Origin: a virus
DNA: 54,276 bases
Strand: one strand, 5' to 3'
Virus record (IMG/VR): IMGVR_UViG_3300044627_001883
Span: 1 to 54,276 of that record
In this document: piece by piece, positions 1 to 54,276 of the stretch
Layout: every line of letters starts with the position of its first letter
Position numbering within the stretch: position 1 is the stretch's first letter
Translations under genes and position numbers: made by a program
The notes under the pieces: generated by a model
What the model was told of the DNA's origin: nothing
Seen by the model: the letters and a program-made list of their open reading frames with translations, nothing else
Database searches by the model: none

Positions 1-130
1 CAGCGTCAACCGGCTGGATCTCCAGGTTGCGCACCAGGATGGCATTGGCAGCGCCAGTGGGCGTCGGATCCGTGGCGTAGGTGGTCTCGGTCTTAGCGAG
101 CAGGACTCGCTTGTTATAGAGCAGGGGCAT
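1..130 (-). CDS. Tail tube protein, N-terminal fragment (duplicate of gene at 53282-54229)
   Basis: This is the first 43 codons of the major tail protein, starting at the ATG read at 130-128 and running off the left edge. The full copy is at 53282-54229. It is an artefact of linearising a circle, not a second gene. It shows that the gene order continues unbroken across the window ends. Confidence 0.95.
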   Translation of the reverse strand, partial: MPLLYNKRVLLAKTETTYATDPTPTGAANAILVRNLEIQPVDA

Positions 131-177
131 GGCCGGTTACCTCAAGGCTTGGAGGTGGGTTCAGGGGCAGGCTCGGG
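1..177. repeat. Left copy of the 177-bp terminal overlap
   Basis: These bases match 54100-54276 at every position except base 50 (A here, G at 54149). The copy falls in the coding start of the tail tube gene, and the difference is a silent alanine codon change (GCT/GCC). This is what a circular or permuted phage genome looks like when the assembler leaves an overlap. A true short direct terminal repeat is less likely, because the repeat cuts through a gene. Confidence 0.95.
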
Positions 178-5888: not shown

Positions 5889-6511
5889 CAGCGGTTACCA
5901 AAGCGAATGAAGACGGAGTGGGGGTTGCCCAGGCCGTTGGCGATCATGTTCGCCTTCTGCTCACGGACCACCTGCGCCTTCAGTCTGTCGCGGAGCACGA
6001 GCAGTTCACCCAGCTCGTACCGCTTCAGTGACCGGGTGCCGATGCGGTACTCCTGGACTCCACCACCGGAGCTGAGGGAACGGATAGCGGCCTCAACGGT
6101 CTCCAGGTCCTTCTGCGCCTGAGTGCGGCCGTCAAATGCTGCGGGGCTGCCGGCGTAGGACAGGCTCGGCAGGACCGTGAGCTGGCCGGAGCCGAGCGTG
6201 ATCTTGTCACCGCCAACCAGTGCGGTGGCCTGCGCTTGGAAGTACCAGGTGCCGGCATTCATTCCGGCGGAGGTGCCGGAGGGGATGGTGGACAGCCAAT
6301 CACTGCCGCTGTCAGTGGCGACCACCGTCACGCCTTCGTGGTTGGCGTTGAAGCGGAGGTAGTAGATCAGGCTGTGGGTGTCATTGCTGACCGGGGTGCC
6401 CAGCGAATCCTGCATGGGCGGGTCAAGCCACTTGATGGTGTCGCCGGCCCGGAGTTGAGATGGGATCTTCACGGCTTCACCAGTTGCGGACGAAGCTACG
6501 CTGAGCTCCAC
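5888..6511 (-). CDS. gpW-like head completion protein with N-terminal beta domain
   Basis: 207 residues. The C-terminal ~65 residues (SLKRYELGELLVLRDRLKAQ) match the short lambda gpW pattern that closes the portal. The preceding ~130 residues (GDTIKWLDPPM, YLRFNANHEGVTVVA, GTWYFQAQA) look like an Ig-like beta sandwich, much longer than normal gpW of about 68 residues. The start is GTG and overlaps the terminase end by 35 bases. The extra domain could be surface-exposed at the portal or act in host contact; this is inference. Confidence 0.65.
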   Translation of the reverse strand: MELSVASSATGEAVKIPSQLRAGDTIKWLDPPMQDSLGTPVSNDTHSLIYYLRFNANHEGVTVVATDSGSDWLSTIPSGTSAGMNAGTWYFQAQATALVGGDKITLGSGQLTVLPSLSYAGSPAAFDGRTQAQKDLETVEAAIRSLSSGGGVQEYRIGTRSLKRYELGELLVLRDRLKAQVVREQKANMIANGLGNPHSVFIRFGNR

Positions 6512-8348
6512 CTGATCTTAGCGATGGTGAGCGCCGCTTCTCTACTGGAGCTTTGAGCCGCTTTTCCAGCTGATCCCAGATGGTTCTCCGGTCTCGCAGC
6601 TGATACATGCGATTCAATCCGGCGTAGGCGTAGACCAGGGTGTCCAACGCCTCATTCCGCTCACTGGGCTTCTTGACGAACTCCCGGATGGCGAAGCCCC
6701 GCACAAAGCGGATCTGCTGTTTCTCGGAGGTGAGCTGAGCGAAATACTCCTCGTTGCAGCCGGTGTGGAAGTGGAGGTAGCCGGGGCCAGGTTCGTTGTG
6801 CTTCAGCCGCCCAAACAGCGTCACCTTCACCGTGTCAGTGCCGACGAGGAACAGCTCCACCCCATCCTTCAGCACCCGTCCACGGGCATTCACGTCCACC
6901 TTGCTGGGCTTGCCGATGACGGGCTTGTTGCGGGTGGCGGCACCTTTGATGGGGATGACGCCTTTGCTGCGCCGCTCCCGGGCGTACTGGTAGACCTCGG
7001 CGGTGAAGTGACCACCGGAGTCAATGCAGACCACATCCGCAGGCAGGGTCCCTCCACTGGCGTGCGGGAACGGCTCCAGGATGATCTCGTCAAGCTGCCG
7101 CCACAGCTCCGGACGGGACGGGTCGCCGTAGATCTCTTGGTGATCAACCAGCCAGCCCTCCTCTTCACGGCCCCAGGCCCACACGCTCACCGCCAGGCGG
7201 TTGTCCTGAACGTCCACGCCGACCGTGACAGCCAGGCCGCCATCCGGCACCACCCGCGGTTCGTAGAGCTCCACCCGCTCCATCAGCGCCGATGCGCCGA
7301 CCTTGTTGGCGTAGTTGTCCTCAAAGGTCTCACCCAGGACGGTGTTGACCCAGGTTTTGAGCATCGGGGCGTCAGCCTTGGCCTTCAGGAACTCACCCAC
7401 AATGTCCGCCCATGACTTCCAGCCCAGGGGGGAGTAGAGGGAGCTGAGGTGGAAGCCGGCAGTAAGCCCATCAGACGGAGCGGTAGCCCGCCACTCACCA
7501 GCCGCCAGCATGTCCGTCTTGTGGCGCTCGGGGATGAGCACGCCGCAGCTCTCGCAGCAGTAGGCCGCAGTCTTGGGGTCGTCGTCTTGCCAGCGGATGT
7601 TGCCGAACTGGAGCCACTGCATGTGGCCGCAGTCCGGGCAGGGGACGAAGTAGCGGCGCTGATCACTCGCCAGGTACTCCGCCTCAATCCGGCTGAAGTC
7701 CTTGATGGTTGGGGTGGAGCACAGGAACACCTTGCGCCGGCTGAAGGTGGTGGTGCGGCGTTCCGCCAGGCTCACCGGGTCACCTTCACCGTCCAGGTCC
7801 ACGGGGTAGGCGTCCACCTCATCACAGAACAGGTTCTTGATGGGCATGGAGCGGAGGCCCGCGCCAGAGTTGGCCCCGCCGATCATCAGGATTCCGCCAG
7901 GGAACTCCTTGCTGAAGAGGCTGTTGCCGCTGTCCCGCTCCCGGGGCGGCCGCACCCGTTGGCGGAGCCGGGGGCACTCCTCAATCAGCGGGTTGAGGCG
8001 CTGCTTAGAGAACCGCTTGGCAATGTCCACCGTGGGCATCACGCACAGTGACGGTCCCGGGGTGGCGTCAATGATGTAGCCCAACCAGTTGTTGCCGCAC
8101 TCCGTCTTGCCCACCTGAGCGCCGGCCATGAACACCACCCGCTGGATGGGGGAGGTGGTGCTGAGGCAATCCATGATCTCGCGCAGGAAGGGCGTGCGCT
8201 CCGTGCGCCACTTGCCTGGTTCTGCGGAGGCCCGCTGGGAGAGCATCCGATGCTCATCCGCCCATTCGCTCACGGTCAAGATGGGGTCAGGGCGTAGCCC
8301 AGCACGGAAGCTGGGGACCAGATCCCGCTCAGCGTTCGCTAGCACCAT
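6477..8348 (-). CDS. terL: Terminase large subunit (lambda gpA family)
   Basis: 623 residues. The ATPase has a Walker A at ~75-85 (GAQVGKTECGNN) and a Walker B at ~174 (LFCDEVDAYP). The nuclease half follows, with acidic residues in VTVGVDVQDN (~375) and VVCIDSGGH (~440). This gpA-type enzyme cuts and pumps DNA into the prohead. The ATG at 8348 lies inside the end of the small subunit gene. In this family DNA is often cut at cos, but no cos site could be identified by eye. Confidence 0.92.
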   Translation of the reverse strand: MVLANAERDLVPSFRAGLRPDPILTVSEWADEHRMLSQRASAEPGKWRTERTPFLREIMDCLSTTSPIQRVVFMAGAQVGKTECGNNWLGYIIDATPGPSLCVMPTVDIAKRFSKQRLNPLIEECPRLRQRVRPPRERDSGNSLFSKEFPGGILMIGGANSGAGLRSMPIKNLFCDEVDAYPVDLDGEGDPVSLAERRTTTFSRRKVFLCSTPTIKDFSRIEAEYLASDQRRYFVPCPDCGHMQWLQFGNIRWQDDDPKTAAYCCESCGVLIPERHKTDMLAAGEWRATAPSDGLTAGFHLSSLYSPLGWKSWADIVGEFLKAKADAPMLKTWVNTVLGETFEDNYANKVGASALMERVELYEPRVVPDGGLAVTVGVDVQDNRLAVSVWAWGREEEGWLVDHQEIYGDPSRPELWRQLDEIILEPFPHASGGTLPADVVCIDSGGHFTAEVYQYARERRSKGVIPIKGAATRNKPVIGKPSKVDVNARGRVLKDGVELFLVGTDTVKVTLFGRLKHNEPGPGYLHFHTGCNEEYFAQLTSEKQQIRFVRGFAIREFVKKPSERNEALDTLVYAYAGLNRMYQLRDRRTIWDQLEKRLKAPVEKRRSPSLRSGGAQRSFVRNW

Positions 8349-9006
8349 CGCTCAACTCATCCAGGACAACGGTGATCTCTTGTTGCAGCAGCAGCAGGAT
8401 GGCGTGCCGCTTCTCGGGTGAGACTTCGCCCACCAAGCCTGCCAACTGATCGGTGATGCGTGCAGGGACGTTCAGCAGGGCATCGCGGATCCGGCGGGCT
8501 TCATTGAACCACTGGACCTTCACTTCATTGGCTGAGACCAGTTCGCCGGCCCTCTCGGCGTACTCCAGCTTGGCCATCTGCGCCGCAAACGCTTCCCGAA
8601 TGGCCCGAGAGCGGGCGTAGGGCGGCACGTTGTCGGACGTGGTGGGGACGCTGGCGGCAGCCCGGCGTTCCACCGCCTCGGGCTCCTCGGGTGGCGCTTC
8701 GCGTTCTTCCGCCAGGAGCTCCCGGCTGATGGCCCGCTCCTCAGCGGAATCAAACCGCTCGGGTGGCTGCGCTTCATCTGGCTTGGGTCCCAGCTTCTTG
8801 CCGCGGCCACGGTCGTAGGGCAGCACACTTTTCTTCCACGTCCTGGCGGCCAGTTCCGGGTCCGCAATCTTGGGGTGGCCCTTGTGGTCGTAGGTGATGG
8901 CCTCCGGAGGGATGTGACCGGCCTCAATCGCCTTGCGCACCGCGGTGTGTGACACGGGCGGGTCCAGGGACTCGGCAAAGCCGCGCAGGCTGACAGGTTC
9001 ACTCAT
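8329..9006 (-). CDS. terS: Terminase small subunit (Nu1-like)
   Basis: 225 residues. An N-terminal helix-turn-helix (SLRGFAESLDPPVSHTAVRK) would recognise the packaging site. A charged Glu/Pro-rich linker and a helical C-terminal part (NEARRIRDALLNVPARITDQ) resembling other gpNu1/DUF1441-type small terminase subunits follow. It overlaps the large subunit start. It directly follows the modification genes, so base modification and packaging share one operon. Confidence 0.75.
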   Translation of the reverse strand: MSEPVSLRGFAESLDPPVSHTAVRKAIEAGHIPPEAITYDHKGHPKIADPELAARTWKKSVLPYDRGRGKKLGPKPDEAQPPERFDSAEERAISRELLAEEREAPPEEPEAVERRAAASVPTTSDNVPPYARSRAIREAFAAQMAKLEYAERAGELVSANEVKVQWFNEARRIRDALLNVPARITDQLAGLVGEVSPEKRHAILLLLQQEITVVLDELSDGASER

Positions 9007-9536
9007 GTCCGCAGCGCCGGTACGGCGTCCAGCAGTTCACGGGTCATGGCCTCGGGGGACTGGTCGGCGCGGATCATCACCGCACCCCACTCCTGCGCAA
9101 TGCGCTGCGCCTTGGTCAGGCGGCCCTTCACCCACTGTGGATTCTGAAGGCTGGTGCCGTGTTGCTGCGCCCGTGCGGCCCGGCGGTCAGCAGCCATGCG
9201 CGACGGCAAGCCCAGGTAGATCAGCCGGAGCTGGTAGCCGGCCTCTGCTGCAGCGGTGAAAAATGCGGGGTAGGACAGGCGGTCGCCCTCACCAATCACC
9301 AACGGGAATGGGCGGGAGCGGATCCAGTTCTCTGCCGTCCGGGCCACGTTCATGGGGAGCGTGTCGGTTCCGCCGAATGGCGGCCGGCGGCGGCCAAGGA
9401 TCGCGGCCTGGAGCTCCGGGAGCTCCTCGTGCGCCAGCGGCTGCTCCCGTTCAATCCGCTCACGACCCGCCAATGCGTTCTCCAACAGCGTGGTCTTGCC
9501 CGCACCCGGCGGGCCAATCAGGTACAGCAGCTCCAT
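9003..9536 (-). CDS. P-loop kinase, 5-hydroxymethyl-dU DNA kinase-like
   Basis: 177 residues with a P-loop at the N-terminus (GPPGAGKTTLL), the GGTDTLPMNVA segment and an acidic VIGEGDRLSY stretch. This pattern fits the small kinases of phage thymine hypermodification systems, which phosphorylate 5-hydroxymethyl-dU in DNA to create a leaving group. Neighbours are a PLP enzyme and an AADT-like transferase, the expected partners. A generic nucleotide or adenylate-type kinase is the alternative; context makes the DNA kinase more likely. Confidence 0.7.
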   Translation of the reverse strand: MELLYLIGPPGAGKTTLLENALAGRERIEREQPLAHEELPELQAAILGRRRPPFGGTDTLPMNVARTAENWIRSRPFPLVIGEGDRLSYPAFFTAAAEAGYQLRLIYLGLPSRMAADRRAARAQQHGTSLQNPQWVKGRLTKAQRIAQEWGAVMIRADQSPEAMTRELLDAVPALRT

Positions 9537-9537
9537 C

Positions 9538-10584
9538 TCACTGAAGGTGGCGGGTCATGGCGCCGGCAGTGGGCTTGGAGCCGACGATCCAGAACAGCGT
9601 TTTGCCGTCGCCCTCCCACCACTCCGAGAACGTGTCCCGGTGCTCCGCCATGTAGGTCAGGCACTTGCCTTCGTAGGTCGGGTGGAAGTCGATCCCGTCC
9701 AAGCTGAAGGGCTTGCGGTCGGCGTACTTGACGTAGCCGGTGGAGTGGAGGTCGTAGTGCTCCAGCTCGTAGGGCGCATCCCGGCGGTGCGCCGGCTCCA
9801 GATCCGGGTGCTGGTGGTAGCGGGGGCGGAATAGCCCCATCACATCCACCCCGGTGGCCTGGTGGATGCTTTCCATGCGGTCTTCAATCCACCGGAGCCG
9901 GGTGGGACCGATGCCGAGCAGCGTCACCTTGCGGAGCGCCTTGGGCCGGTGCTGCGCGATGCCGAAGAGGACGGACGTGCAGGAGTTGCACGAGCCGGCC
10001 GGCATGATCAGGTGCTCAATGTCATCCGGGATGTTGGCGGCCTGGGGGGCGCCGACCGCATGGAAGCCCGCCACGTCACGGGCGGTGGCCGCCTCCGGCG
10101 TGGTGATGCCGTAGTGGAGGCGGAAATAGTCCTTGAGCTGGGGCTCCTGCGCCAGCTTGCCCACGGACCGCTGGAGGGTGGGGTTGAAGCCCACCGGCAC
10201 GTAGCTGAAGGTGGCCCCAGCGCGGGCGGCGATGGCGACGTTCTCGTGCTTGATGGACGTTTCGGGCTTGCTGCCGCCCAGCACCATCAGCGCCGGAAGC
10301 TCATAGTGCGCCGCCACCAACGCAGCCATGCTGATCTGTGGGCTGAGCACGGATGCGCCAGTGATCAAGCCGGCCCGGCCACCGGATTGGCGGTAGTTCT
10401 GGACCAGGTAGATGAGCTGGCGGAGCTTAGAGCCGTTGATGCCGCCATAGCCCAGCGGGGCAAAGAAGTCCTCACGCTTGTATGCCCGGCCGTTCACGCG
10501 GGTGATGGGCGTGAGCGTGCCCAGGTACTGCTCCCATTGGACCTGAGAGCGGGAGAGGGACTGAACGGGGAAGACGGTACGCAT
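9538..10584 (-). CDS. PLP-dependent enzyme of the tryptophan synthase beta / ACC deaminase fold
   Basis: 348 residues. K53 in GGINGSKLRQL sits where the PLP-binding lysine lies in fold-type II enzymes. ITGASVLSPQ (~75-83) and the PAGSCNSCTSV loop (~195-205) fit the phosphate cup. Enzymes of this kind occur in phage DNA base hypermodification clusters, where they are thought to act on an amino acid already joined to the base (for example by decarboxylation or elimination). It lies between the kinase and the transferase-like gene with two-base spacing. The exact reaction cannot be read from sequence. Confidence 0.75.
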   Translation of the reverse strand: MRTVFPVQSLSRSQVQWEQYLGTLTPITRVNGRAYKREDFFAPLGYGGINGSKLRQLIYLVQNYRQSGGRAGLITGASVLSPQISMAALVAAHYELPALMVLGGSKPETSIKHENVAIAARAGATFSYVPVGFNPTLQRSVGKLAQEPQLKDYFRLHYGITTPEAATARDVAGFHAVGAPQAANIPDDIEHLIMPAGSCNSCTSVLFGIAQHRPKALRKVTLLGIGPTRLRWIEDRMESIHQATGVDVMGLFRPRYHQHPDLEPAHRRDAPYELEHYDLHSTGYVKYADRKPFSLDGIDFHPTYEGKCLTYMAEHRDTFSEWWEGDGKTLFWIVGSKPTAGAMTRHLQ

Positions 10585-10586
10585 GA

Positions 10587-11669
10587 CTACCTCCAGCGGG
10601 GGAACAGCTGGTCACGCACCGCATCGTTGAAGTCGTTGCGGAACTCGGGGTAGTCGCGGTCCATCATGATGACTTGGCCGGTCAGCCGGTAGTGGTTTTG
10701 CTTGATTGGGACGCAGCCCGGGTCGTGCGGGTTGTCCTCCAGCCGCAGGTAGTCCGGGAGGTAGCGGCGCCGCGCCTCCCAGAACACGCTCAGATCCTCA
10801 CCAGGCCAGCGGGCCTGCGTGGCACGGATCCGGTCATGGAACATGTCGTTGTAGACGTTGGGGTAGCGCCGGTTCACGCGGTGCCAGGACTTGTAGGTGC
10901 AGAGCGCCGACTCCATCGTGAAGTAGCTCACGTCATGGGCGTAGTCGGTGCCGGCGGCCAGCTCTCGCGCCTCCGCCAGGATCGCGGCACCCTCCTCCTC
11001 CAGCCAGTTCAACGTCTGCTTGGGGTAGGTCCCGTCAAAGTCTGGGTTGCTGGAGTGCCAATCCAGGTCATCTCGACCCAGCACCTTGCACAGCCCGTTG
11101 CGGTGTGACTTGGAGCCGGAGCGGTCATCCAGGAACAGCGTGTCGCAATCGAACGGGGCGCCGGTAATGCGCAGGTACTCGCTGAAGCTGAACGCTGACA
11201 GCCGGCCAAAAGACGGGATGGCGGTCGCCACCGCCCAGATGCCCCCGAAGCCGCGTTGCGCAGCCTCGCCCCACAGCTCCAGCTGAGTGCGGCCGCGCAG
11301 CAGCTTGCGGTAGCCCTCCACTGCCTGCGGCAGCATCTTCTTGTGATGCCGGCGGTCCGTATCAAACGCCAGCTGTGCGTAGTTGGCCCGATACCACTCC
11401 AGCATCGGTTCCGCCGCATCCACTGACGGGAACCTCCGGTGAAGGATCCAGCTGGTTAGCGGGTGCTGGGTATTGCCGTTGAGGAAGGCAAACCACAGGG
11501 CCTCTTCGGCGGTCCAACCCTGCTGCTCTGCCAGGAAGGGGAGCACGTAGTAGACGGCACCAGGATGCGCCCGGTACTTCAGGTGGAACTGGTAGAAGCG
11601 ATGGAACACCGTCCGGCGGAGCTCCGGCACCCGGAAATCCATCCCAGGCCGCAGGTCCGTCAATCCCAT
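10587..11669 (-). CDS. Amino acid:DNA transferase-like protein (aGPT-pyrophosphorylase family)
   Basis: 360 residues from ATG at 11669, inside the end of the dioxygenase gene; an upstream in-frame extension is antisense-like and not used. The helical sequence with SKSHRNGLCKVLGRDD (~186-201), the aromatic N-terminus (VFHRFYQFHLKYR) and a basic C-terminus resembles the aGPT-Pplase/AADT clade. Those proteins replace the phosphate of phosphorylated 5-hydroxymethyl-dU with an amino acid. Neighbours on both sides are predicted pathway partners. The donor amino acid is unknown. Confidence 0.65.
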   Translation of the reverse strand: MGLTDLRPGMDFRVPELRRTVFHRFYQFHLKYRAHPGAVYYVLPFLAEQQGWTAEEALWFAFLNGNTQHPLTSWILHRRFPSVDAAEPMLEWYRANYAQLAFDTDRRHHKKMLPQAVEGYRKLLRGRTQLELWGEAAQRGFGGIWAVATAIPSFGRLSAFSFSEYLRITGAPFDCDTLFLDDRSGSKSHRNGLCKVLGRDDLDWHSSNPDFDGTYPKQTLNWLEEEGAAILAEARELAAGTDYAHDVSYFTMESALCTYKSWHRVNRRYPNVYNDMFHDRIRATQARWPGEDLSVFWEARRRYLPDYLRLEDNPHDPGCVPIKQNHYRLTGQVIMMDRDYPEFRNDFNDAVRDQLFPRWR

Positions 11670-12565
11670 AGAGGATCGCCAGGCTTGCGGTTCTTGGCGC
11701 GGTCCAGCTCCTGCTGCGCGGTGCCGCAATGGATCATCTTCTCGCGGTAGTAGAAGACCTGCGTGAGCCGGCGGAACCGCTTGGGGTTGCCCACCATGGC
11801 GGTGTTGCCGTGCCACTGGTGCACGTCAAACAGCAGCACGTCACAGGACGTGGGCGCCACGCCTACCCGGTACTTCGGCATGACCAGGTGGCCACCTTGG
11901 AACGTGCCGGAGGTGAGGCAGGCCATCACGCCAAAGCCATCGCGGAAGTCACCCGCATCCTTGTGCGTCGCGGTCCGCCAGGACTCATTCACCGTGATGG
12001 TGGTGAAGGCGGTGTCTTTGATCACGAAGTCCTGGCTGGTGCGGTCCGCAATGTCCCGCTGCCTGGCGTACTGCTCCGGCAGATGCTCAGCGAACACCCG
12101 GTCCACGTGCCGGATGTAGGGCTGAAGGTTGTGCCACTGCTCCGGGTTGTCCCGGGTGTAGTTGCACAGCCGGCAGAACGGCATCCGGGTGTACCGGTCG
12201 AAGTAGCCGATGATGGCGCTGCGCACCGGATTGGCCGACACGCGGGTGTTGCTCCGGGTGCCCTTCTGCGTGGGGCGGTAGACCGCCAGGTTGCCCTGCT
12301 CGTCATAGCCACCGGCAATGCCGCGGTTGCGGCTGCCTTGGTCGCCGTAGTCGATGGTCTCCGTCAGGATCTGATACGCCGCAGCACCCAGCTCTGCCGG
12401 GATGGCGTTGCGGACGTAGACCAGCAGCGGGGAGCCGTCAGGCTTGTTCACCCGGGTGGTCTCACCCTCCACCAGCAGGTCGTAGTGCTCTGGGGTGAGG
12501 AAGTGACCAGCCAGGTGGTCCACCTCCTCGTCAGGGAGCTCAACAGGAGCGGTCAGGATCCTCAC
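11660..12565 (-). CDS. TET/JBP-family 2-oxoglutarate/Fe(II) DNA base dioxygenase
   Basis: 301 residues. Iron ligands are visible as H201-x-D203 (ATHKDAGDF) and a distal histidine, probably H252 (DVHQWHGNT), with basic residues R262/R265/R266 placed to bind 2-oxoglutarate. FGVMACLTSGTFQGGHLVMP between them is the usual TET/JBP sheet. The N-terminal half (SRNRGIAGG, YFDRYTRMPFCR) also fits. The protein would oxidise the methyl group of thymine or 5-methylcytosine in DNA. No cytosine-5 methyltransferase is visible in this genome, so thymine is favoured. The GTG start overlaps the ParB-like stop (GTGA). Confidence 0.85.
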   Translation of the reverse strand: MRILTAPVELPDEEVDHLAGHFLTPEHYDLLVEGETTRVNKPDGSPLLVYVRNAIPAELGAAAYQILTETIDYGDQGSRNRGIAGGYDEQGNLAVYRPTQKGTRSNTRVSANPVRSAIIGYFDRYTRMPFCRLCNYTRDNPEQWHNLQPYIRHVDRVFAEHLPEQYARQRDIADRTSQDFVIKDTAFTTITVNESWRTATHKDAGDFRDGFGVMACLTSGTFQGGHLVMPKYRVGVAPTSCDVLLFDVHQWHGNTAMVGNPKRFRRLTQVFYYREKMIHCGTAQQELDRAKNRKPGDPLWD

Positions 12566-13293
12566 AGGCCCTCCAGCACATCCTTCAGCGCCGCAAACAC
12601 GCAGTCAGTCTGGTTGCTGGTGCCGTAGTGCTTGTTGAGCCGGTCAATCATGCGGCCCCATTCCGTGTGCTGGTCCAGGCTCATGAACAGCTGCACCACG
12701 CGGGTCGCGGCTGGCGGGAGGCTGAATGCCTCCTCATCCTCATCCTCATCCCCTTCATCCACCACTCCAGCAGGGAAGGAACTGGGTGCGGGACTGTCAG
12801 GGAGGGGCGAGGCGCCAGCCGCGGCCAGCGGGGTGCCCGGGGTGCCCGGGGTAGGGGCGTTGAAGGTGGGCGTCGGGACGTTGGTGGCTACGTCATCCAG
12901 CAGGCCGCCCAGCTCAGCGTCCGAGAAGCCGGTCAGCTCCAGGTCAAAGTCAAAGTCGCGCAGGTCCGCCAACTCACCGGACAGCAAGCTCATGTCCCAG
13001 CCGGCCAGCTCCGCCAGCTTGTTGTCCGCAATGACGTAGGCACGCTTCTGCGCTGCGGAGAGGTGGTCAAGAACCACCACCGGCACCTCCGTCAGGCCCA
13101 GCTCCTTGGCCGCGGCCAAACGGCCATGCCCGGCAATCACCCCAGCGTCACCGTCCACCAAGACGGGGTTGACGAAGCCGAACTCCACGATGGAAGCCGC
13201 CAGCTGCGACACCTGCGCCCGGCTGTGGGTGCGGGGGTTCTTGTCGTAGGCAACGAGCTTGCTCACCGGCCACAGCTCAATGCGCTTTGCCAT
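12562..13293 (-). CDS. ParB/sulfiredoxin-fold domain protein
   Basis: 243 residues starting MAKRIELWPVSKLVAYDKNP. The ParB N-terminal domain is clear: RTHSRAQVSQLAASI, then VIAGHGRLAAAKELGL with the GHGR nucleotide-binding motif, then AYVIADNKLAELAGWD. A Pro/Ala/acidic linker and a short helical C-terminus (MSLDQHTEWGRMIDRLN) follow. Such ParB-like proteins often accompany phage DNA methylation or hypermodification genes. A role in targeting the dioxygenase is plausible. Another in-frame ATG exists at 13317; neither start has a strong ribosome site. Confidence 0.8.
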   Translation of the reverse strand: MAKRIELWPVSKLVAYDKNPRTHSRAQVSQLAASIVEFGFVNPVLVDGDAGVIAGHGRLAAAKELGLTEVPVVVLDHLSAAQKRAYVIADNKLAELAGWDMSLLSGELADLRDFDFDLELTGFSDAELGGLLDDVATNVPTPTFNAPTPGTPGTPLAAAGASPLPDSPAPSSFPAGVVDEGDEDEDEEAFSLPPAATRVVQLFMSLDQHTEWGRMIDRLNKHYGTSNQTDCVFAALKDVLEGL

Positions 13294-22695: not shown

Positions 22696-22970
22696 ATCTC
22701 GTCATCCTCACCAACGACCGTGTGGCACCTGTGGTGCCCACCTCCGAGCACAAGTCCACCTACGCCCCACGCGGTGTCCGGACGCCCATGTGGCAGTTCC
22801 AGCCTGGTGATCGCGTCTACGTCCGGGACTGGATTGGCTCCGGCCTGATCATGGAGCGGGTGTCAGGCTTGGCCTGGCCCCACTACCTGATCATGAACGG
22901 CGAGGGGCACCTCTACCGTGTCTCGCAGATCATGCTGGCCTCCCGTCCGCTGTGGGATGGCCCCGCATGA
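22692..22970 (+). CDS. Hypothetical SH3-like protein (92 aa)
   Basis: A beta-rich protein with MWQFQPGDRVYVRDWIGSGL and a second block (HYLIMNGEGHLYRVSQIML), like a small barrel domain. Overlaps both neighbours by ATGA. Function unknown; nucleic-acid or protein binding is possible. Confidence 0.6.
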   Translation: MNLVILTNDRVAPVVPTSEHKSTYAPRGVRTPMWQFQPGDRVYVRDWIGSGLIMERVSGLAWPHYLIMNGEGHLYRVSQIMLASRPLWDGPA

Positions 22971-31347: not shown

Positions 31348-31600
31348 CATGCTGGAGTCCCTCTACCAACACTCCGGCAGGGACCAGCTGCCCGAGGGCC
31401 ACCCACTCCGCTGCACCTATACCGGGTTGTGGGAGGAGTTCTGCCGCGACATGGCGGCCAACTTCCGCGACACCGACTACGCCGAGCTGCTGGCGGATGT
31501 GATGAGCGGAATGGATGAGACGCAATCAGTCATGAGCGAGCCCCAGGCCAAAGCCGCCATCGCCGTCTGCCGCAAGCACCTGCTGGGACGCTGGGCATGA
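31313..31600 (+). CDS. Hypothetical protein (95 aa)
   Basis: MKSFQLDQQRADMLESLYQH, then PLRCTYTGLWEEFCRDMAAN and a helical C-terminus ending LLGRWA. The stop overlaps the ThyX start (ATGA), so it is probably translated with ThyX. No recognised family. Confidence 0.6.
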   Translation: MKSFQLDQQRADMLESLYQHSGRDQLPEGHPLRCTYTGLWEEFCRDMAANFRDTDYAELLADVMSGMDETQSVMSEPQAKAAIAVCRKHLLGRWA

Positions 31601-32223
31601 GCGTCACGCTGATCCACGCCACACCGGACGCCGAGCGGTTGATCGTCAAGATGGCCCGGGTGTCCAACCCAGCCAACCAGGACAACCAGGAGACTGCTCC
31701 CAGGCTGCTCCGCTACCTCATCCGCCACCAACACTGGTCGCCGTTTGAGATGGCGTCCATGTGCGTGGAAATCTCCACCGAGCGCGACATTACCGCTCAG
31801 ATCCTCCGCCACCGTAGCTTCAGCTTCCAGGAGTTCAGCACCCGCTATGCCCGGAGCTCCCGGGCACAGGTGCCTTCATTCCGCCGTCAGGACGAGGCCA
31901 ACCGCCAGGCCAGTCACGATGACCTGCCGCTGGAGGTTCAGTCCATGGCGCGTGACGCTGCGGACCGGGTGATTGGCTCTGCCTATGAGCTGTACTACGA
32001 CCTGCTCCAGCAAGGCGTTGCCCGGGAGACTGCCCGCCGCATCCTGCCGCTCTGCACGCCCACCACCATCTACATGCACGGCACCCTGCGCTCCTGGATT
32101 CACTACATCAATGTGCGGACGGACCCGGGCACCCAACTGGAGCACCGGCAGGTGGCTCAAGCGTGCCGTGAAATCTTCACCGAGCAGTTCCCCTTCATCG
32201 CTGAAGCCGCCTTCAATGACTGA
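31597..32223 (+). CDS. thyX: Flavin-dependent thymidylate synthase
   Basis: 208 residues. The ThyX signature RHRSFSFQEFSTRYA is at ~71-85, with HQHWSPFEMASMCVEIST before it. RSWIHYINVRTDPGTQLEHR near the C-terminus completes the substrate site. It makes dTMP from dUMP with methylene-tetrahydrofolate and FAD. With dCTP deaminase feeding dUMP, the phage can raise thymidine supply, which fits a genome whose thymines may be modified. Most host picocyanobacteria also use ThyX. Confidence 0.95.
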   Translation: MSVTLIHATPDAERLIVKMARVSNPANQDNQETAPRLLRYLIRHQHWSPFEMASMCVEISTERDITAQILRHRSFSFQEFSTRYARSSRAQVPSFRRQDEANRQASHDDLPLEVQSMARDAADRVIGSAYELYYDLLQQGVARETARRILPLCTPTTIYMHGTLRSWIHYINVRTDPGTQLEHRQVAQACREIFTEQFPFIAEAAFND

Positions 32224-53282: not shown

Positions 53283-54229
53283 CAGAAGACCTCGATGGAG
53301 AACTCATCATCACCCACACCGTTGTTGGACGGCAGGGCAGTGAAGGGGATCGCGTACTGGGTGACGCGATCCTGCTCGGTGTAGTTGATGGTGGAGATGT
53401 TAGCCCTGGGCACGGTGACCTTCACCTTGTTCCCGGCGGTCGTGCCGTGGGTCACGGTGCAATTGCCGCTGACGCTGGTGATGGCGGAGGTGAAGTAGTC
53501 CTTGGTGGCCATCGTGACCGCGTCAAACTGGACGGTGCCAGCGGTGTTGCGGTCAGTGAGGAGCACCTCTCTGACGCTGCCGACCAGCTCCCGGTAAACC
53601 ATCTCCATGCCGATCTGCAGCTCCAGGCTGGACAGCTCAGGGGAGTAGCTGTGGAACGAGAAGCCAGTGCTGTTGGTGTTGTTGAACAGCTGTGGGGTCT
53701 GGAAGCCGTTGAAGTTGGTGGTGACGCTGGAGAAAGCTACGTCAGTGGGGCCGTTGTAGATCCCCATCAAATCAAACTGGTAGACCGGGATCTGGCTCAC
53801 GGTCATGTTCAAGGTCACGGTTCCACGGCAGCCCGTGACCGTGTGGTTCACGCCGTCAATGTTGACGTAGATGGTGCAGGAGCTGAACGACTCCGACACC
53901 GGGGCGTAGGTGACCTTGGTGCCTGCCGCGACGGTCTCGGACATGCCGCAAGCCTTGAGGAGCGGACCGTACTTGGGCACAGCTCCAGCGGACCCAGCGC
54001 CGGCCATTTCCACTTCAAACGTGACCCGGGAGCGCACGTTGGCGATCAAAATGTCGCTGGCACCCAGGTAAGGCCGGATCAGCTCCCGGCTGACCTGCTC
54101 AGCGTCAACCGGCTGGATCTCCAGGTTGCGCACCAGGATGGCATTGGCGGCGCCAGTGGGCGTCGGATCCGTGGCGTAGGTGGTCTCGGTCTTAGCGAGC
54201 AGGACTCGCTTGTTATAGAGCAGGGGCAT
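53282..54229 (-). CDS. Major tail (tube) protein
   Basis: 315 residues starting MPLLYNKRVLLAKTETTYAT. Tube-protein features include PTGAANAILVRNLEIQPVDA, FEVEMAGAGSAGAVPKYGPL (the GTPPYGPLL-like block) and TVTLNMTVSQIPVYQFDLMG. It would polymerise around the tape measure to form the flexible tail tube. Its N-terminal coding end is the sequence duplicated at the window's left edge. Confidence 0.85.
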   Translation of the reverse strand: MPLLYNKRVLLAKTETTYATDPTPTGAANAILVRNLEIQPVDAEQVSRELIRPYLGASDILIANVRSRVTFEVEMAGAGSAGAVPKYGPLLKACGMSETVAAGTKVTYAPVSESFSSCTIYVNIDGVNHTVTGCRGTVTLNMTVSQIPVYQFDLMGIYNGPTDVAFSSVTTNFNGFQTPQLFNNTNSTGFSFHSYSPELSSLELQIGMEMVYRELVGSVREVLLTDRNTAGTVQFDAVTMATKDYFTSAITSVSGNCTVTHGTTAGNKVKVTVPRANISTINYTEQDRVTQYAIPFTALPSNNGVGDDEFSIEVF

Positions 54230-54276
54230 GGCCGGTTACCTCAAGGCTTGGAGGTGGGTTCAGGGGCAGGCTCGGG
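54100..54276. repeat. Right copy of the 177-bp terminal overlap
   Basis: Identical to 1-177 apart from G at 54149 (A at 50). See the left copy for interpretation. Confidence 0.95.

Follow-up and report, generated by a model that had tools for sequence, protein, structure and literature searches.

We analysed the IMG/VR virus record IMGVR_UViG_3300044627_001883 over its whole length of 54,276 nt (hereafter, the window). An operon on the minus strand (positions 9003–13293) encodes a ParB_N-domain protein (ParB), a TET/JBP 2-oxoglutarate (2OG)/Fe(II) dioxygenase (TET), an amino acid:DNA transferase (AADT), a pyridoxal phosphate (PLP) enzyme and a P-loop kinase, and is followed by the genes for the small (TerS) and large (TerL) terminase subunits (Table 1). 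The initial annotation of this DNA had placed five such genes directly upstream of terminase, and Pfam and PHROG profiles confirmed the arrangement and the names at the family level. It had also described the genes as sharing overlaps, and of the four internal junctions two do overlap: ParB and TET by 4 bp and TET and AADT by 10 bp, whereas gaps of 2 nt and 1 nt separate AADT from PLP and PLP from kinase. The kinase and TerS genes overlap by 4 bp, and TerS and TerL by 20 bp; through the kinase/TerS overlap the packaging genes are coupled to the operon.

Table 1. Features of the window, with the supporting profile matches or motifs.
Feature	Position	Strand	Support
ParB_N-domain protein, first operon gene	12562..13293	-	PF02195 4e-7; phrog_620 2.5e-54
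TET/JBP 2-oxoglutarate/Fe(II) dioxygenase, GTG start	11660..12565	-	PF12851 1.1e-22
AADT amino acid:DNA transferase	10587..11669	-	PF18724 2.9e-17
PLP enzyme, fold type II	9538..10584	-	PF00291 1.4e-5 (below cut-off); phrog_3650 2e-97
P-loop kinase (Ploopntkinase3)	9003..9536	-	PF18751 2.1e-30
Terminase small subunit TerS	8329..9006	-	phrog_57 1.2e-17
Terminase large subunit TerL, GpA type	6477..8348	-	PF05876 3e-98; PF20454 2e-96
ThyX thymidylate synthase, canonical	31597..32223	+	TIGR02170 169 bits (equivalog); RHRX7S motif
Integrase, 568 aa	34214..35920		phrog_1 3e-64
Terminal repeat	1..177, second copy 54100..54276	no strand	one mismatch between copies

The ParB, TET, AADT and kinase assignments lie above the Pfam curated thresholds, and the PALP match of the PLP enzyme lies below. 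When compared with a relative of ∼90% identity (G002/L008), the ratio of nonsynonymous to synonymous substitution rates (dN/dS) was 0.13–0.20 for the operon genes (0.20 for ParB) vs. 0.09–0.12 for the terminase genes, and all five operon genes are under purifying selection. Artefacts or chance open reading frames were ruled out by the domain matches, these ratios and the conservation of the operon in many contigs. A further match of the ParB N-terminal region (2.8e-54) is to phrog_498, whose members are DNA methyltransferases that have this N-terminal domain in common with it. ParB is probably a DNA-targeting or recruiting subunit.

The TET/JBP enzyme scored 80.4 bits with PF12851 (cut-off 34.9 bits), and the iron triad HxD...H (H201, D203 and H252) and the 2OG-binding arginine (R266) are invariant. 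Its AlphaFold2 model (predicted local distance difference test, pLDDT, 90.3) matched TET2 (7ne3, 3.5e-13) and NgTET1 (4lt5, 7.4e-13) in Foldseek, with a probability of 1.00 for TET2, NgTET1 and CcTet. R274 aligns with H1904 of TET2, which contacts the base in the TET2-DNA structure. Arg or Leu occupies this position in 50 of 52 AADT-linked TETs, Arg in 5 of 5 linked to an FkbM methyltransferase, and Asp in 12 of 14 linked to a C5-cytosine methyltransferase (CMT); most ParB-linked TETs have Arg, and those of actinophages and some other AADT-linked ones have Leu. An Arg could donate to O4 of thymine and an Asp could accept from the amino group of cytosine. The contrast suggests a possible base-reading switch, although it may be phylogenetic in part, the CMT set being one clade. 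In a quick tree the CMT-linked TETs formed a separate clade (support 99), and among the ParB-linked TETs the AADT, FkbM and other partners were interleaved.

The AADT scored 63.6 bits with PF18724 (cut-off 26.2 bits). A hidden Markov model (HMM) of the window family found Vi01_199, the AADT of Salmonella phage ViI (Vi01), at 4e-62 and detected the M6 transferase at 25 bits, with Gly155, Glu253, Cys257, Tyr269 and Arg300 in common. With the AlphaFold2 model (pLDDT 86), the best PDB match in Foldseek was a phage 5-phosphomethyl-dU (5-PmdU) glycinyltransferase (8z2m/8z2n; probability 1.00, template modelling score up to 0.62, but E = 0.04). Neither the kinase nor the AADT had a useful match in sequence searches of the PDB, and for the AADT it was the comparison of folds that proved informative; a literature search found no paper on the solved glycinyltransferase, and an AADT query against plasmids gave no match. 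We infer that the AADT swaps the phosphate of phosphorylated 5-hydroxymethyl-dU (5-hmdU) for an amino acid.

The PLP enzyme is homologous to Vi01_182 over its full length (39% identity over 380 columns, HMM E = 1.6e-115), and both share the motif GxNGSK(L/C)RQ, with the conserved PLP lysine, and the motif GSxNS. A lysine motif of this kind is expected in fold-type-II PLP enzymes. The window enzyme is of the ViI type and may act as a decarboxylase, or trimming enzyme, on the attached amino acid. In Vi01 about 40% of thymidine is 5-(2-aminoethoxy)methyl-dU (5-NeOmdU) (PMC11721090), and the base is made by phosphorylation of 5-hmdU in DNA by a kinase, followed by amino-alkylation (PMC6449724); the 5-NeOmdU nucleoside has an [M+H]+ of 302.1 (PMC6449724). 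That the AADT and PLP relatives act on hydroxymethyluracil-derived bases is the strongest single argument for a thymine target.

The genome is complete, because it has a 177-bp terminal repeat and an independent metagenome assembly of 43 kb (G001, 99.99% identical) continues through the junction of the genome ends. Missing genes are therefore meaningful for this phage, and a fragmentary genome that conceals a thymidylate synthase (TS)-family gene or a CMT is ruled out. As the initial annotation had stated, neither a dUMP hydroxymethylase nor a CMT was found: searches of the complete genome with PF00303 (TS/dUMP hydroxymethylase family) and PF00145 (C5-cytosine methyltransferase) gave no match up to E = 1, and a home-made TS HMM and a CMT profile were negative. 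Elsewhere a PF00303 six-frame scan overlooked two divergent TS genes (L124 and L127) that the home-made HMM and hmmscan recovered, and both methods were therefore applied to the window. The window thus lacks the TS-family enzyme of the ViI 5-NeOmdU pathway and the methyltransferase of CMT-TET cytosine hypermodification. The earlier view of ThyX as a source of normal dTMP also stood: with its canonical signature the enzyme is predicted to supply dTMP, not hmdUMP, and a role as hydroxymethylase is unlikely given its RHRX7S motif. The absent CMT, the TET clade and R274 lend indirect support to an action of the window TET on thymine rather than on 5-methylcytosine (5mC), and the enzyme would convert thymine to 5-hydroxymethyluracil in DNA.

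Scans of IMG/VR and a few phage records yielded 86 distinct TET+AADT loci, with a ParB gene in 74 of them and, whatever the gene order, a Ploopntkinase3 gene in 85. Clustering of the AADTs at 80% identity gave 47 clusters, of which 41 had TET without TS, 5 had TS without TET (Vi01, Montesquieu, L124, L127 and L147), none had both and 1, a 4-kb fragment, had neither (Fisher p = 4e-6); among TET clusters, 47 had AADT without CMT, 11 had CMT without AADT and none had both (p = 3e-5); the tests count related sequences, and the AADT clusters are not fully independent, so that the p-value for TET and TS serves as a guide. Whole-record searches agreed with the exclusion of TET and TS. In 65 CMT+TET loci, mostly of the Melnitz type, fetched with one query and forming one clade, AADT was found in none, ParB in 1 and Ploopntkinase3 in 25, the last as expected for a general kinase of hydroxymethylpyrimidines. 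Conversely, CMT had no match in 46 of 48 records that carry the window-type transferase, and the two matches were partial. These data support the view that TET replaces the nucleotide-level TS-family enzyme, and that the same tailoring genes are used with either.

The initial annotation had called the kinase 5-hmdU DNA kinase-like. It is a P-loop kinase, with an intact Walker A motif (GPPGAGKT) and 106.1 bits with PF18751 (cut-off 27 bits), but it does not match PF18747, the family of the ViI 5-hmdU kinase (HMUD2). Among the profiles named there as a check, those for TET/JBP (PF12851) and AADT (PF18724) were matched and that for HMUDK (PF18747) was not, and a ViI-type HMUDK is ruled out at the family level. 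The window kinase may still work like the ViI enzyme, and from its context we assign it as a putative kinase of 5-hydroxymethylpyrimidine in DNA; of the proposed steps its own is the least secure. The label of phrog_800 would make it a TerS, which is ruled out by the separate TerS gene that overlaps it. In TET-less mycobacteriophages (L162, L164 and L165) Ploopntkinase3 genes directly upstream of terminase carry the label of adenylate kinase or of terminase small subunit. In the kinase tree the terminase-only kinases nest within the modification-linked ones, a pattern suggesting that they were kept when the other genes were lost.

The genes that follow ParB-TET are modular. AADT and kinase are joined by a PLP enzyme in 20 loci and by a class II glutamine amidotransferase in 39, with a GNAT protein in 29; the PLP enzyme and the amidotransferase never occur together, and we read the amidotransferase arrangement as an alternative to the PLP step. 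Examples of the order ParB-TET-amidotransferase (often with GNAT)-AADT-kinase are L071, L102, L021, L014 and L040. A tail with a TET-associated glycosyltransferase (TAGT) was found in 16 loci, never with AADT, and one with an FkbM methyltransferase in 15; L029, L101, L067 and L002 exemplify ParB-TET followed by one or the other, and both are probably further thymine tails. Of 41 AADT loci of sufficient length, 31 have terminase ≤6 kb downstream, as do 8 of 8 FkbM loci, against 0 of 12 CMT loci; this nearness hints that modification is coupled to packaging. Methylophilales phage Melnitz-3 (L166, 4010–8087) carries genes for an HhaI-type CMT, a TET, a 427-aa unknown protein and Ploopntkinase3, possibly a route to phosphorylated hydroxymethylcytosine.

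Most likely the operon alters thymine within completed phage DNA by TET, kinase, AADT and PLP steps. ParB would target the complex to DNA or hold it there, TET would hydroxylate the thymine methyl group to give 5-hydroxymethyluracil, the kinase would phosphorylate the hydroxyl, the AADT would substitute an amino acid for the phosphate, and the PLP enzyme would take off part of the amino acid, probably the carboxyl. DNA modified in this way would be shielded from host nucleases or bacterial defences. The end product is likely a ViI-type thymine with an amino-alkyl group, with 5-(2-aminoethoxy)methyl-dU as a tentative best guess. The sequence of oxidation, phosphorylation, replacement by an amino acid and PLP-dependent trimming had been put forward in the initial annotation; domain, structural, phylogenetic and co-occurrence evidence upholds this core, and the family assignment of the kinase had to be revised. 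We slightly favour a wider reading, in which a large class of thymine-specific ParB-linked phage TETs, recognizing thymine by the Arg or Leu at the TET2 His1904 position (mostly Asp in CMT-linked TETs), replaces dUMP hydroxymethylase as entry step. Small phages, such as this one, in which no replicative polymerase was recognized, could then hypermodify thymine in replicated DNA and exchange one tail for another (AADT+PLP, AADT+amidotransferase+GNAT, TAGT glycosyltransferase or FkbM methyltransferase).

Several points weigh against modification of thymine by this operon, in addition to the relatedness of the sampled clusters and the single query and clade behind the CMT-linked set. The window AADT is only ∼27% identical to that of Vi01, and the amino acid and product may therefore differ; the kinase family also stands beside terminase in mycobacteriophages that lack TET. 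Either 5mC or T can be oxidized by members of the TET family, and 5mC may come from a methyltransferase of the host. The phage TETs characterized by Burke et al. in 2021 (cited in PMC12730594) reportedly act on 5mC, and the presence of the kinase family beside CMT+TET pairs means that it is not thymine-specific. The window TET might then oxidize host-made 5mC, with the kinase, AADT and PLP enzyme working on hydroxymethylcytosine. We consider this quite improbable, given the absence of CMT from the genome and from nearly all records with this transferase, the lack of AADT in every CMT+TET locus, the action of the AADT/PLP relatives in Vi01 and M6 on hmdU-derived bases, and the separate clade and different position-274 residue of the TET.

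In another route, ThyX or a host enzyme might make hmdUMP for DNA built with hmdU, the TET being otherwise employed (e.g., in further oxidation). In its favour, a TS-family gene accompanies identical or related types of tailoring gene in Vi01, M6 and Montesquieu. This route is most improbable: both TS searches were negative, ThyX is a canonical equivalog, none of the open reading frames was seen to match a replicative DNA polymerase, and TET and TS never occur together with AADT. A different end point (hmU, phospho-hmU, an uncut amino-acid adduct or a non-ViI product), with the kinase in truth a partner of terminase and its presumed step left to a different kinase or to none, is unlikely. In its favour, the kinase is not of PF18747, and PF18751 genes precede terminase in cluster B mycobacteriophages without TET, queuosine-type ones included. 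Against it stand the near-constant presence of the kinase in TET+AADT loci and the nesting of the terminase-only kinases.

With regard to the rest of the genome, the integrase indicates that the phage, so far met in metagenomes only, is probably temperate, which is unexpected for a phage with hypermodified DNA. The largest replication protein is a PrimPol-VapE helicase. A 232-aa protein at 22952–23650 matches phrog_3704 ('ferredoxin', 8.6e-95) and no Pfam or NCBIfam family, and megablast of the phage sequences brought up no close relative.

In those phages in which it has been studied, thymine hypermodification begins with a special nucleotide pool. If thymine is the target here, entry by TET would move the start of the pathway to finished DNA, allow its transfer to small temperate phages and add thymine to cytosine as a substrate of prokaryotic TET chemistry. 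Iyer is said to have predicted in 2013 that TET-generated hydroxymethylpyrimidines are starting points; the exclusion of TET and TS makes a prediction of that kind sharply testable, the switch idea from residue 274 can be checked by a single enzyme assay, and liquid chromatography-mass spectrometry could be applied at once to cultured phages that carry related operons. The initial annotation knew of no demonstrated system of this design. In the literature searched, too, no phage TET was found for which action on thymine has been demonstrated biochemically, but the ParB-TET-transferase-kinase design had already been foreseen, and seen in actinophages, Tonitrus among them. What is new is (i) a TET front end joined to a ViI-type PLP step; (ii) the exclusion of TET and TS; and (iii) the contrast at residue 274.

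Among the closest known systems are the operons of Mycobacterium phage Prince, Gordonia phage Wooper and Rhodococcus phage Tonitrus, in which ParB, TET, transferase, Ploopntkinase3 and terminase stand in the same order as in the window; Tonitrus has been published as a thymine hypermodification system, and such actinophage operons have been described (PMC11955845). They have no ViI-type PLP enzyme, and a chemical verification was not found in any of the sources. The Prince AADT is about 48% identical to that of the window, but its TET is about 24% identical, belongs to another clade and has Leu for Arg at position 274. Prince gene 3 (L004, 1750–2826), labelled DNA glycosylase, is an AADT, and its annotated start lies ∼100 bp past the beginning of homology. 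An unannotated contig of an Actinomycetota metagenome-assembled genome (RGDC01000007, L256), probably of a phage or prophage, matches the window operon gene for gene from ParB to kinase, with terminase next; its AADT is 62% identical, but its terminase is of another family.

Vi01 shares a homologous AADT (Vi01_199) and PLP enzyme (Vi01_182) with the window, and its phosphorylation and amino-acid attachment are post-replicative; in contrast, it has a TS-family gene and an HMUD2 kinase, no TET match and scattered genes. In Glutamicibacter phage Montesquieu an AADT-PLP-kinase-kinase array of the same families goes with a TS/pyrimidine hydroxymethylase in place of TET. Phage CMT-TET systems of the Melnitz type share a phage TET and often the same kinase family, but have an adjacent C5-methyltransferase, as a rule no ParB, no AADT and mostly Asp at position 274. 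In the kinetoplastid base J pathway a TET/JBP enzyme (JBP) likewise hydroxylates T in DNA, and glucosylation, rather than amino-acid transfer, comes next.

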